Source of the DNA: Lineus longissimus
Taxonomy: Eukaryota > Nemertea > Pilidiophora > Heteronemertea > Lineidae
Length of the DNA stretch: 64,000 nt
Assembly: GCF_910592395.1 (NCBI RefSeq)
Contig: NC_088314.1
Span: 1,116,001 to 1,180,000 of the forward strand
Reading direction: 5' to 3'
Shown: positions 8,786 through 14,700 of the stretch, piece after piece
How the letters are laid out: every line of letters starts with the position of its first letter
Numbering within the stretch: the stretch's first letter is position 1
Notes under the pieces: generated by a model
Seen by the model: only the letters and a program-made list of their open reading frames with translations
What the model was told of the DNA's origin: nothing
Databases searched by the model: none
Position numbers and translations under genes: made by a program

Positions 8786-11700
8786 TCACTGTTGACTACT
8801 ACCGTCCTCCATCTTGATTTTCTTGGCAGCGGGCGACATCGCAGAAGGACTTGTTGCAAGCCTGAAGTTAGAGAGAATAATGAATCATTCTGAAGTCAAA
8901 AGATTTCATATCCAAGGAACTGCTTACGGTAACAGGCAGAAAAGAAGATCCAAATTTTGTTCCCATTGACATTGCCCTCGACATGTATTTGACATGTGCA
9001 TGAGAGGCTTGTGATAAGTTCTCCTGCTGGGTTTCTCAATGAAATCACTCAAATTCTGAGTGCCATTTTCTGGTGAGAAGCAGCAGAGATGTACTTACTT
9101 GACTTCAGCCAATGGTAACACCCGCTTCATTGGGGCTTTCACGGCAGCATTCGCTGTGTCTGAAAAAGAGACAATGTATTGATAAAGTCACCAGGAAACA
9201 AACAAGTAGTGTGTTGAAACCTTTTCAGCAGGTCTCATGAGCCAACCCTGGGTAACATTCTACAGTATTCTTGGTTTTTGAACTTGTTTTGCTGGAAACA
9301 TGATAAACCATGATACAACTTCCTCAAGTCTTATCACACAACAAAACAAGAAATTTTTCAGACACAGACTGATGAATCTTAAAACCTTCCTCAGATGATC
9401 TTGACCAGGAATGTCAGATGCCAGCATTGACTTTTTTAAATGATCAGCCAGAATCAAACTGTTCTCACCTTGCAACCATCTGACTTGTGTGGCCGGTCCG
9501 TAACCTTTCTCGTTTCTGGCAGCGATTCTGAAGATTATGGCAGGTTTTGTAGTATAGTCGATATGAGCAGACGTCAGACTACTTGAGCTCACAACACACG
9601 ATGGATGTGGTCCACAGTAGACCCGTACGAAAGCCAGCTGAGGTGGAGGTTTGCCTTCCTGGGTTGATGAACTCCTGACTGCCAGGTAGACCGAGTATTC
9701 TGTGATCTTTCCAGCTGTGTTCTGTGGGGGTTCCCATGATAGGTAGGCACCATCGTTGCTCTGCAAATGAAACAGAGATTATATGAATTCAGGAGGTCAG
9801 GTGAGAAAATTGCACTACAGAATGATGTCTGATCTGATGAGGTTTGGTGGAGGTATTGGATTCCATGACTTCTGCTGAAATAGCCTACACACATCACCTA
9901 CCTTGCTAATCTTGATTGCAGATGGGGCACCAGGGAATCCAGGCAGACACGTCTTGAATGCCGAGATCTCGCTGAACGGACCGCGTCCACACGCATTGAT
10001 TCCAGCAACGCGGAACTTGTACGCTGTTCCTGGAAGGAGCTCCTGTCGCTTTAGCACACTATGGTCTGGCACACTCACAACGTCAATATCCTGGAAAGAA
10101 AGCGAGTCGGCACGTTGTTATAGTGTCTCTTGTCTTTGCCTTAGGTAGTACTGCTGGACTTCTGGGCTGTCTTATTCTTGTCCCAACAGTTCATGGGTCA
10201 GAGTGAGTAAAGTGATGAGTTTTCTTACAACTAACAACAACATTACAACTGATGAATACACTTACGTCTCCATTTCCCTGTCCTGCCTCTGATGGCAGAT
10301 GATAATGTGAGACGACGGTTGTTGTCCCTTTGATGACACCAACGTCGTACCATTGGTTGCCATCTTTCTTGATCACCAACGGCTTTGGCGACTCAGACTT
10401 GACTTCCTAAAGAGGAAAAGAACACATGTAGAAACCACGATGATATTAGATATACCAGTTCTTTTTTGTTGTTCTGAGACTGTCGACTCATTATTTGATT
10501 ATCAACAACTGTCAGATGACTTTGACTGCTTGTCTTATTTAGTAACGACAGCAGATTCAATGGCACTCTACCAAGAACCGGCTACTTGTCAAAAAGAGAT
10601 CAAAAGCCATTACTTCTCTGAGGATAAACAAACATCCAAACTAACAATAACAAACAAGTCCAATAGCTTACTGATTTGATGTCTGCTCCATTTTTGACAG
10701 CACTTCCCAAACCAAGTTCCTTCTTGATAGAAGCTGTCGTCGTCAAACTTGTGCTGGCCGTGGAGATTGCTGCGGTGGCCAACGTTGACAGTGGGTCTGT
10801 AGCTGCTGATGTGTCGTCTGCTTTCTCTGCTGTATCCATGGGTTCATCCTTGGCAACAGCCAGAACCTTACTTACAGCGGTTTCACTGGCTGCAGCAGAT
10901 GTATCCATGGCTGCCTCCTCTGGTGCCTTGGTAACCTCAGGCAATACAGATGGATCTGTTTTTGCTGAAGTATCTTCACTAGTTTCAGTAGGACTTTTGT
11001 TTGATTCCGTAACAGCCTCCCCTGCTACCTCTGCAGTGTCTGTTTCCTTTTCTTCTCCGGCTGCCTCAGTCATCTTTTCCTTCTCTGATGCATCTGTTGC
11101 CTCAGAAGTCTGCTGCTTTTCATCACCCTCTTTTCCCCCATCTCCCTCATCATCTGTTCCACAGTTGCCGCTGCCAGGCAAACAGACTGGCTTGCCAGCT
11201 TCTTCTTCATCATCTGTTCCACAGTTGCCGCTGCCAGGCAAACAGACTGGCTTGCCAGCTTCTTCTTCATCATCTGTTCCACAGTTGCCGCTACCAGGCA
11301 AACAGACAGGCTTGCCAGCTTCTTCTTCATCATCTGTTCCACAGTTGCCGCTACCAGGCAAACAAACTGGCTTGCTGACTTCTTCTTCATCATCTGTTCC
11401 ACAGTTGCCGCTGCCAGGCAAACAGACTGGCTTGCCAGCTTCTTCTTCATCATCTGTTCCACAGTTGCCGCTGCCAGGCAAACAGACAGGCTTGCCAGCT
11501 TCTTCTTCATCATCTGTTCCACAGTTGCCGCTGCCAGGCAAACAGACAGGCTTGCCGACTTCATCTTCATCATCTGTTCCACAGTTGCCGCTGCCAGGCA
11601 AACAGACAGGCTTGCCGACTTCATCTTCATCATCTGTTCCACAGTTGCCGCTGCCAGGCAAACAGACAGGCTTGCCAGCTTCTTCTTCATCATCTGTTCC

Positions 11701-14700
11701 ACAGTTGCCGCTGCCAGGCAAACAGACAGGCTTGCCAGCTTCTTCTTCATCATCTGTTCCACAGTTGCCGCTACCAGGCAAACAAACTGGCTTGCTGACT
11801 TCTTCTTCATCATCTGTTCCACAGTTGCCGCTGCCAGGCAAACAGACTGGCTTGCCAGCTTCTTCTTCATCATCTGTTCCACAGTTGCCGCTACCAGGCA
11901 AACAAACTGGCTTGCCGACTTCATCTTCATCATCTGTTCCGCAATTTCCACTTCCGGGCAAGCAGACATTGTCCTCGTCGTCTGTTCCACAGTTTCCACT
12001 GCCAGGTGCACAGGTCTCTCCAGCACCATCTGTTGAATCCATGGCCTCCTCAGCAGACGCCAAGGTTGCCATGGTAGCACCAGCAGTAGCAGACGTGATG
12101 ACTGGTCCAGTGACATTCATGGTTTGAGAGATGACAGGTGTAGTGACAGCAGACGTTAGAACTGTACCCGTCGTGGAAGATGCTACGGTCGTGGCTGTTG
12201 CTCTTGTTATGGTCACAGTTGGTTTACCATCTGGAAGATAGAAATATCACACGATAAGCAAGTGGAACTTGAAAGTCAATGGTGGAATCAAATGATGTAT
12301 AAAAGCCTGCAGAAACAAGGTCATTACGCCAGCCTGGTGGCACAGATGTTGACATCATTAGGAGACGCTTAGTGTCCAACATCTTTAAGAGTTACTTGCC
12401 TATAATCTGAATTCCCTTTCCAGTGGCCGCTCCAGAGCCGGAGATGATACTGACGACTGGTTTTGATACTGGAACACCAGATGCTGAGATGAGCTTGGCA
12501 CCAGATTGCAGGAGATGAGAATATTGAGATGGGAGTGTTGTTAACTGTTGGCCACCTGAAATGGAGTCACTAAAGTTTTCAACACATGATCAAGTCTGCT
12601 TGAAATAAACAATGGTATGGCATTATAAAGTCCCAGTATCATTGTAAAGACAAGTCAATCATCTGCCAGTACATGCAACCTTAGTATTACTTCAGCACAG
12701 TGGCAACTTTGACTTGCTAAGAACTTCTGTTGGTCATGGGAGTCAATACTGAGAGAAAACAAAGAGACGATCCTACCAGAAGTCTGTCAACTTGAAGATT
12801 TTGAAGTGTCTGACAGTACTCATCAGTACTATTGAGTAGAGTCAACTTACCATCAGCAGTTACAGTTTTGACAGTCACGGCACCTGGAGTGCCACTCCCT
12901 TGCGTATTCACCACGATATACTGTGTGCCACCAGATGTTGACGTACTCAGCTTGGGCATTGTGGTGATGAACTTAGTCGGCGTGCCTCCAGTGCCGGTCG
13001 CACTCTTGGGAGCAGCAATGACGATTGTTTGTTTGCCACCTATAGATGTGGTTGTGATGCCTTGAGATTTGGCCATGGAGAACATGGAGCTTGGGATGGT
13101 TTTGATGATCGTCGACAGGTTCTTGCTTTGAGATTGCTGATGACAGAAGCAAGGGAGAGATCAACAGGAGGAAGCATAGATAAACAACACACAGAATCAT
13201 AACAAGGAGAAACCTTCCTCTCATTTTGTCAATCCAAACGAGTCTGCGGCCCCTTTTGGGAAGTGGAAATTTCACAACTTGGGGCCGAACTCTGCCAGAC
13301 AAGACTTGGCAGGGTAAAAATATGAGTTGCATAGATGGCAGGCAGGACAATCACTGCACTGGTTAGAAATGCTGTGTCATACCTGTGGCTGTACGCTGCT
13401 GATGCCGAGTATCGTCGATGGCGTTCCTCCATGTTGAGTACTGGTGATGATGGCGGGCTTTCCACCGGCTCCACCCTGGGTCGTGACAAGCTTCACTATA
13501 GTTGCACCTTGTGGAATGCCTGACTTTGTCTGAAACCAAACAATAGAAAATTGCAAGAATATTGATGCAGACAGTGAGAATTGGAACGACATTCATGTAC
13601 AAGGAAAGAGGTAACATTGTAGTTAAGTTAAACGTTTGTACTTGGTCTTTTATATCTTCAATAAACATGGCACTGATCAAAAATATCTCTGGAACAAAAA
13701 ACCATCCAAAAAACATTCTGTCCAAAAACAGAAGACAACAAACATGTAAACTATTTGATGGATGCTGAAATTAGAGCAGATATACCTCCTCCATGGAGTT
13801 GAACAACACAACTAAAGTATTGGCCTGAAAAAAATCCCCTTGATTCAGAAAAACATGCAAGAAAAAATCATTGAATTATTTATGACTAAGACATGAATGG
13901 ACATGCTTATTACGTATGAATCTACCTGAACTGTATGAACAGTTTGTGAGCCGGTGACGGTCGGTCTTGACTGGAACAAGGTCACCTTGGGCATCTGTTG
14001 AAAGACAGAGAGCAGACCGTACTAACATGCCAATCAACTGATCTTACACCAAGACGCAAGCACCAATATCCTGGCCGCAAGAACTGAATACAACTTAAAA
14101 TTCTTCACAGGTGAAACAAGACACGCTAGCATTCGCAAAACCCATCATCACATCGATGGGTACACATGTAGGTGTTCTATCTTCACGAGGACCATCAGGG
14201 AATGGAACATGTTGCCGAAGAAGACATCAGCAGCAGACGACTTGAGGCATTCAAAGCAGTTGTCCCAGCCCTTTGATGTGCTGCAGTCCGACAGATACAA
14301 CATCAAGAAATATGTACTGGAACATATAGACACCGAACTTCTTCAAAGATCTTCACACTATCATTTGTCACTGTACGCAACACAACTTGTTTTTAACACA
14401 AATCAAGCTTTTATAGTAAACATCAATATCAAGACAATGATGAAAGAAACTTATTTTATGAAGAAGAAGGGCAATGAAGATTGAACCGAAAGCTACAACA
14501 AGACATCCTGTGACTCGGATCACGACACAACACGTCAACATCAGAGAAGCACAAGTTCTGACAAAGCAGAGGATGGAAAGATATGCAGGTTCAACCAAAG
14601 AATTGGAATTGAAATGACACAGAACAATGCCTTAGACAGCCCACTAAGCACATTCCCAAGTAAGACAACCATCACACCGTCACGAGAAGAAAAGCAAACA

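Follow-up and report, generated by a model that had tools for sequence, protein, structure and literature searches.

Within a 64,000-nucleotide stretch of Lineus longissimus DNA (contig NC_088314.1 of assembly GCF_910592395.1, positions 1,116,001 to 1,180,000; hereafter the window, from whose first letter all coordinates are counted), the gene for the host cell factor HCF carries an array of cysteine-pair repeats in the segment that holds the HCF-1PRO repeats of vertebrate HCF-1. The position of this array, its confinement to a single exon, the recurrence of similar units in the HCFs of several phyla and the constraint on the core of the Lineus unit were all observed, the recurrence and the constraint being the strongest of our claims. 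Giving it about even chances, we read the array as the nemertean version of an old Cys-pair motif of the HCF maturation segment that would have replaced a Taspase1 site and been ancestral to HCF-1PRO. The origin of the OGT cleavage of HCF-1 is a standing question. The arrays, a single unit in a starfish HCF and an alternation with sites of Taspase1 type set a testable rival beside a sudden or viral origin, together with named species in which it can be tested; on this view, the repeats cleaved in vertebrates may have been remodelled from an old element instead of arriving suddenly.

The array-bearing gene is HCF. A splice model with 19 introns, AG acceptors throughout, 18 GT donors and one GC donor yielded 1,608 amino acids with a single stop, and its product was identical to the public L. 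longissimus protein P0001 (host cell factor 1-like isoform X2) apart from exon 11, whose 23 amino acids are present in the model and missing from P0001. Kelch_HCF matched P0001 with E = 1.4e-196 and 653 bits (cut-off 113), corresponding to the N-terminal HCF-type Kelch domain, and fn3 matched it with E = 4e-9, corresponding to the C-terminal fibronectin type III part typical of the HCF family (exons 16-18). The open reading frame (ORF) piece 17103-17681 by itself reached 1e-24 against Kelch_HCF, which is under the family cut-off.

The array is real and coding, and lies entirely within exon 15, flanked by the basic/threonine-rich and the acidic parts of the protein. Tandem Repeats Finder (TRF) returned a period of 60, 13.7 copies and 94% matches. 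A degenerate DNA pattern for CGTDDE and the following GA gave 14 matches in the window, every one of them inside the array, and no match in any of 100 dinucleotide shuffles; the 15th unit, in which Gly follows, is not among these 14. Each unit consists of a 14-residue core followed by a six-codon tail, mostly E/D-E-A/V-G/S-K-P, and the two cysteines are separated by six residues in all 15 units (CLPGSGNC type), the interior reading LPGSGN in 14 and APGSGN in one. An original prediction, made from the sequence of this stretch, had assigned the gene to an invertebrate HCF and described 15 copies of a 20-residue unit between its basic and acidic regions, which agrees with the splice model, the match to P0001 and the array as mapped here (Table 1), the first unit being shorter and divergent; its exact 60-bp register also stood, although with 14 units in place of the 13 it had counted.

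The core of the Lineus unit is under constraint. Across the cores of the 14 in-register units, 10 distinct variants were synonymous and none altered an amino acid, whereas the possible single core changes are 27 synonymous to 99 nonsynonymous (of 126), so that the observed 10:0 has p = 2e-7. This count was restricted to units with the exact core, which all in-register units possess and unit 1 does not: in the latter Val is replaced by Thr and Leu by Ala, and its inclusion brought the counts to 12 synonymous and five nonsynonymous base changes, the latter falling in two codons (p = 2e-5). The six-codon tail of the same 14 units carried three synonymous and 11 nonsynonymous changes, matching the expectation without constraint. 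The core is read as constrained because gene conversion alone would erase synonymous and nonsynonymous differences alike. Twenty-two arrays were hand-picked, one per species, by a pattern that itself fixes the cysteines and requires G, P or E behind them; in 17 of these, the segment that begins at the first Cys and ends two positions past the second varied less than the four residues following it. These data bear on a neutral expansion by slippage of a disordered acidic stretch, devoid of function, which would be compatible with the labile array length among relatives (from 3 to 29 units in bivalves), with a recent turnover indicated by the 94% matches between copies, and with a single copy accounting for seven of the 10 synonymous variants of the core. 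We consider it highly improbable in view of the purely synonymous variation of the core beside the 3:11 of the tail, the lower variability of the core in the picked arrays and the presence of Cys-pair units in the same segment across several phyla.

HCF relatives were collected by two full-length protein searches (the best 120 of 1,549 and the best 120 of 1,690 matches), which provided 177 HCF-type proteins. Species counts refer to 73 named invertebrates, with several records of one species merged and all vertebrates, including sharks and rays, excluded; insects, including Drosophila, were not among the named matches listed, and P0071 (seven units), P0053 (two QFDG sites) and P0006, P0014 and P0094 (neither) stand outside the 73. 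Units of the form C-x(4-6)-C in the HCF linker, taken from residue 450 to the Fn3 motif, were present in 45 of the 73 species, a count that is descriptive and carries no test because the motif patterns were written after the unit types were known and the linker was given these bounds. They occurred in both nemerteans, bivalves, non-heterobranch gastropods (not Batillaria), spiders, ticks, a scorpion, horseshoe crabs, amphioxus and, as one unit, a starfish (Table 2). Constant across the unit types are the Cys pair and, mostly, the multiple copies; a regular gap of six with a PGSGN interior was seen only in the Lineus array among the species read. The other arrays, for which no published name was found, share the segment, the copy number and the core layout with that of Lineus, and differ from its gap-6 type as illustrated by the CTDGIHCGEEK of the nemertean Tubulanus. 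A K[TSA][IVM]P block occurred in 24 of the 45 unit-bearing species and stood upstream of the units in all 24, and an MDT-like motif followed the units in 32 of the 45, also preceded them in four and was absent in 11. Searching a set of 5.8 billion proteins with the amphioxus array region (7,986 candidates scored) returned nine proteins, namely three amphioxus HCFs, the Nephila HCF (E = 9.4e-5), the Oedothorax HCF (E = 8.2, not significant) and four non-HCF proteins. The remaining 28 species were array-less; 10 of them had Taspase1-type sites and 18 had neither, these being Lingula, Octopus, Argonauta, Batillaria (perhaps a poor gene model), Trichuris, two myriapods, four decapods, three sea urchins, two crinoids and two sea cucumbers.

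Separate origins of the arrays in lophotrochozoans, chelicerates, amphioxus and vertebrates could account for unit letters and spacing that differ by clade, for the array-less lineages in between and for similar motifs in proteins unlike HCF. Nevertheless, we regard such convergence as unlikely, as the same segment is used every time and near-identical cores recur across phyla: CTDGIHCGTPP in Mercenaria and CTDGIHCGTPE in ticks, CTDGKHCGEEK in both Tachypleus and Tubulanus, and CGTPHGC in Patella and CGTIHGC in amphioxus. Of the two possibilities in the original prediction, an independent expansion or an ancestral form, the latter fares better given the arrays in nemerteans, molluscs, chelicerates and amphioxus and the starfish unit, while an expansion private to Lineus is disfavoured; the orthologue search it had proposed found 16 units in the close relative Tubulanus and did not refute it. 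As a whole, that interpretation is partly supported, a descent of HCF-1PRO from the arrays and a processing of the array remaining hypotheses; it had missed the alternation with Taspase1-type sites described below.

All vertebrate HCF-1PRO copies are stated to lie in one large exon (PMC4840301), and OGT cuts between Cys9 and Glu10 (PMC4549301), which corrects the cut between Glu and Thr assumed in the original prediction. Replacement of Glu10 in human HCF-1 by Ala, Asp, Gln or Ser prevents cleavage and strengthens OGT binding, and P8A and C9A inhibit cutting (PMC4549301); OGT binding is driven by the threonine region and is severely disrupted by T(17-22)A (PMC6240873). The Lineus units resemble HCF-1PRO in belonging to the same protein and the same segment between basic and acidic regions, in their several copies, all likewise in one large exon (exon 15, 1,559 bp), in the Cys pair and in a Thr two residues past the second Cys. 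They differ in a Gly at position 10 in all 15 units, in acidic residues where the threonine region would be, in a Cys gap of six instead of Cys-x4-Cys with PP before the second Cys, and in a tight 60-bp tandem arrangement as against a human unit spacing of 28-185 residues. Since Gly at position 10 and acidic residues replace Glu and the threonines, the Lineus units would be expected to be neither cut nor strongly bound by OGT, and the known cleavage should not work on them; the resemblance, the Glu-to-Gly change, the wider gap and the probable inability of OGT to cut had all been anticipated. A stronger form of the earlier reading, in which the Lineus units are themselves of HCF-1PRO type and dock OGT uncut, could draw on the gain in binding upon Glu10 changes (PMC4549301) but seems very unlikely, as, besides the missing Glu10, an acidic stretch takes the place of the threonine region that drives OGT binding (PMC6240873).

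According to the published view, HCF-1PRO is restricted to vertebrates, occurs nowhere else even in degenerate form, and appeared suddenly, perhaps from a virus (PMC4840301). The multi-phylum arrays and the starfish unit conflict with the statement on its occurrence. HCF-1PRO-like sequences were already reported from the chimera, and Kelch domains, including those of worm, fly and lancelet, were compared in 2019 (PMC6582346), the available passages of that paper mentioning no invertebrate array. No description of Cys repeats in invertebrate HCFs was found among the matches listed from the open-access literature searched, and the strings CGTDDE and CGTDDD were in no open-access paper searched.

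Arrays alternate with Taspase1-type sites. The pattern Q[FILVM]DG was found in the linker of 10 of the 28 array-less species, in none of the 45 unit-bearing species and in none of 78 vertebrate HCF-1PRO proteins; no species (0/73) had both units and QxDG, and the association gave a Fisher p = 2e-5 with kinship ignored. All seven heterobranch snails read were array-less with two sites each, e.g. QQFDGTSDD and PQFDGAGDG, the annelid Owenia had IPQFDGAND, and two copepods had QVDGG and Q[LV]DG[ED]PG. Phe is allowed at P2 of Taspase1 sites elsewhere. The published consensus, Q-[I,L,V]-D/G-V-D-D (slash, cut), in which Asp is demanded at P3', at P4' or at both (PMC3102056), does not list the Phe at P2 of the snail and Owenia sites; furthermore, the Candidula site PQFDGAASED lacks the required Asp and the copepod sites fit the consensus less well. 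The sites of the ten array-less species occupy the same HCF segment as the arrays: in an alignment of the upstream flanks, the Owenia site followed the common aligned end by one residue and the Lineus array by 33 residues, and in local flank alignments of nine array-versus-site pairs the two lay 26 to 93 residues apart. Drosophila HCF is reported to be cleaved by Taspase1, and Taspase1 sites such as those of Drosophila HCF, MLL and TFIIA share with the Lineus unit the Gly-x-Asp-Asp after the would-be cut (CGTDD versus D/G-V-D-D), whereas the unit has C, N and G in place of the P1 Asp, the hydrophobic P2 and the P3 Gln. The Lineus linker contains no Q[FILVM]DG and no Q-[FILV]-D before Gly. From the pattern of sites and arrays, the Cys-pair motif probably took over from the Taspase1 site; the vestigial Taspase1 sites that vertebrate HCF-1 is said to retain (PMC4840301) fit the same replacement.

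Two orb-weaver HCFs, P0058 (1012) and P0086 (980), contain QVDIN / QIDIN 32 residues upstream of the array, possibly spoiled Taspase1 sites, and the other five spiders checked have neither. In oysters, a mussel and a pearl oyster the array is broken by GDEVDG[VT]PP, or KDEVDGVVS in Pinctada (interruptions at P0004 1005, P0011 985, P0012 983, P0019 1074, P0023 969 and P0025 962); this reads like a caspase-3 site (DEVD/G) or like a decayed Taspase1 site.

The HCF of the starfish Patiria (P0118) is without an array and carries a single HCF-1PRO-like unit, NCENPPCEKFET, within the stretch NCENPPCEKFETPGVNTPAA. Aligned without gaps, this stretch is identical to the vertebrate HCF-1PRO consensus at 10 of 20 positions (C4, N6, P7, P8, C9, E10, E13, T14, N18 and T19, numbered after Cys9/Glu10 of PMC4549301), and thus has the eight HCF-1PRO residues listed up to T14, while the threonine region T17, T19, T21 and T22 reads V, T, A, A with T19 alone kept. 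Its BLOSUM score was 54; when the Patiria linker was shuffled 200,000 times, no shuffle reached this value (maximum 53). Ungapped scoring of 99 proteins without CSNPP, among them the starfish, ten shark/ray proteins (scores 51-56) and four non-HCF proteins, gave a best score of 36 outside starfish, sharks and rays. When a 41-residue Patiria stretch was searched against the PDB (177,635 sequences), the only matches at E<=10 were three HCF-1 repeat peptides. Two further features are weak hints: a QVDL placed 14 residues upstream of the first Cys and resembling a spoiled Taspase1 site, and an HDLP common to Patiria and human HCF-1, in the latter of which it begins 38 residues before the first Cys.

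With the profile of vertebrate repeats, decayed units were detected in four ray proteins, and pieces in shark/ray HCF-2-like proteins. The ray proteins P0076, P0079, P0106 and P0122 read VCSNPPHETS[ED]TNTTNTATT, with His in place of Cys9, and ten shark/ray HCF-2-like or HCF-1-like proteins (P0123-P0125, P0127, P0128, P0130, P0133, P0139, P0140 and P0158) carry AHETTETNTTNTATS.

Outside HCF, units resembling CDDGIHCGTDDE, CGKPEGCGTDDE and CPDGKHCGTDDE were found in four predicted proteins: 12 in P0178 (23-290), two each in P0179 (782, 833) and P0180 (290, 341), and 13 in P0181 (410-740). P0180 is supervillin-like, with gelsolin and villin headpiece domains; after masking of the arrays, no HCF similarity was left in P0178, P0179 and P0181, the set that was masked. 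The Cys-pair motif may be a portable recognition element. In a viral collection that is no full animal-virus survey, exact patterns of the vertebrate repeat, including NPPCETHET, gave no match. As for a viral source of the units, the invertebrate pattern matched two viral contigs with one isolated unit each (ORFs of 41 and 67 codons), which we judged to be chance.

In the explanation proposed here, an old motif, in which two cysteines four to six residues apart precede a Gly, Pro or Glu and which is situated in the maturation (cleavage) segment of HCF, would have been amplified and rewritten clade by clade. The array would serve as a multivalent recognition signal whose many copies give avidity for one partner and, having replaced the Taspase1 site, would either address another processing enzyme or make Taspase1 cleavage dispensable, whereas vertebrate HCF-1PRO would be the branch that became an OGT substrate by gaining Glu10 and the threonine region. 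A multivalent recognition motif is favoured because the Lineus unit should escape OGT, the array lacks the Taspase1 P1 Asp, and only the Cys pair and the copies are constant; a possible processing role of the array is the weakest of our claims. Vertebrate HCF-1PRO probably derives from the Cys-pair motif, as suggested by the location, the single exon (PMC4840301), the Cys pair, the starfish unit and an array in amphioxus, the closest outgroup among the species read; this descent is not proved, since no protein with both forms was found. A more far-reaching version, held only tentatively and judged somewhat unlikely, would see in bilaterian HCF an old Cys-pair array acting as a third type of maturation signal for a putative novel enzyme, an array which displaced Taspase1 cleavage in nemerteans, molluscs, chelicerates and chordates and was remodelled in place into HCF-1PRO, the starfish unit being a relic and no virus or transposition being needed. 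Alternatively, the Cys pairs might bind a metal such as zinc or form redox-switchable disulfides, making the array a sensor or scaffold apart from cleavage. The two cysteines are indeed the sole constant across types and in many units enclose an additional His or Asp (CTDGIHC), but neither residue stands between the cysteines of Lineus (CLPGSGNC) or Haliotis (CGRPEGC), no confident fold was obtained and the alternation with Taspase1-type sites would be left unexplained, and we consider this alternative quite unlikely. Sequence searches of the PDB with Lineus, spider-type and supervillin-type units gave no match at E<=10.

Several observations weigh against an old, processing-related Cys-pair motif ancestral to HCF-1PRO. 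Neither array nor QxDG site is obligatory, as 18 of the 73 species have neither, which also speaks against an essential role, and the Taspase1 side of the alternation amounts to about three clades (heterobranchs, Owenia and copepods). The residue following the second Cys differs among types (G, P, E), leaving no common protease consensus. In Lineus, unit 2 alone holds the seven of 10 synonymous core variants mentioned above, and an AlphaFold2 model of the array, run without an alignment, had a mean predicted local distance difference test (pLDDT) score of 56.8 with no residue at or above 70. The best non-amphioxus match of the amphioxus-array search was P0178 (E = 5.8e-9), better than the spider HCFs, and since P0178-P0181 carry the motif without being HCF, the motif is not tied to HCF. 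Likewise, for the Patiria unit, 124 of 200,000 linker shuffles reached 10/20 when identity alone was scored, the E values of the three PDB matches (0.033, 0.075 and 0.23) are above the usual cut-off, and a hidden Markov model of the vertebrate repeats gave it 6.8 bits, equalled or beaten by seven of 10,300 shuffled decoys; the profile and the ungapped test are both retained here as their strengths differ.

Table 1. Features of the HCF locus in the window
Feature	Position	Strand	Basis or detail
HCF (HCFC1-like) gene, 20 coding exons, 1,608 aa	8786..19246	-	splice model, Kelch_HCF and identity with P0001
Kelch-domain exons 1-6	16594..19246	-	splice model
GC donor closing exon 14 (GC-AG intron)	12398-12399	-	confirmed by the match of model and P0001
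Exon 15, 1,559 bp, containing the entire array and the acidic region	10672..12230	-	splice sites
Cys-pair repeat array, 15 units, 20-residue period	11146..12012	-	translation, TRF, DNA pattern
Unit 1, short and divergent	11968..12012	-	Cys-to-Cys distance to unit 2, 48 bp
Units 2-15, exact 60-bp register	11146..11967	-	unit starts 11967, 11907 ... 11187
Acidic Glu/Thr-rich segment with MDT motifs, downstream of the array	10672..11145	-	translation
C-terminal fibronectin type III exons 16-18 (self-association part)	9469..10406	-	model; fn3 on P0001

Table 2. Unit types in the HCFs of other species
Species	Unit type	Number
Tubulanus (nemertean)	CTDGIHCGEEK and CTDGKHCGEEK	16 units
Ostrea	CTDGHNCPGDE	13 units
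Mercenaria	CTDGIHCGTPP	17 units
Sinanodonta	CTDGHNCPPAQ	29 units
Haliotis cracherodii, Gigantopelta	CGRPEGCGTPP	17, 12 units
Patella	CGTPHGCPGDG	14 units
Babylonia, Pomacea	CDGIHGCPG	13, 16 units
Nephila	CDDGMHCGTDD	8 units
Ixodes scapularis	CTDGIHCGTPE	25 units
Tachypleus	CTDGKHCGEEK	16 pairs
Amphioxus	CGTIHGCGTDD	6 units
Patiria (starfish, P0118)	CENPPCEKFE	1 unit
Human HCF-1	HCF-1PRO repeats	6 units

Elsewhere in the window, the minus-strand ORF 43643-44629 has a Cys pattern reminiscent of the Brambleberry/GEX1/Kar5 nuclear-fusion family, and Pfam gave no match for it. A plus-strand ORF at 19688-20503, with its first ATG at 19706, belongs to the TMEM187 family (Pfam TMEM187, E = 3.8e-68) and is arranged head to head with HCF, whose ATG lies at 19246 on the minus strand, with about 460 bp between the two. 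On the human X chromosome HCFC1 and TMEM187 are divergent neighbours too, and this arrangement may represent a very old gene pair.

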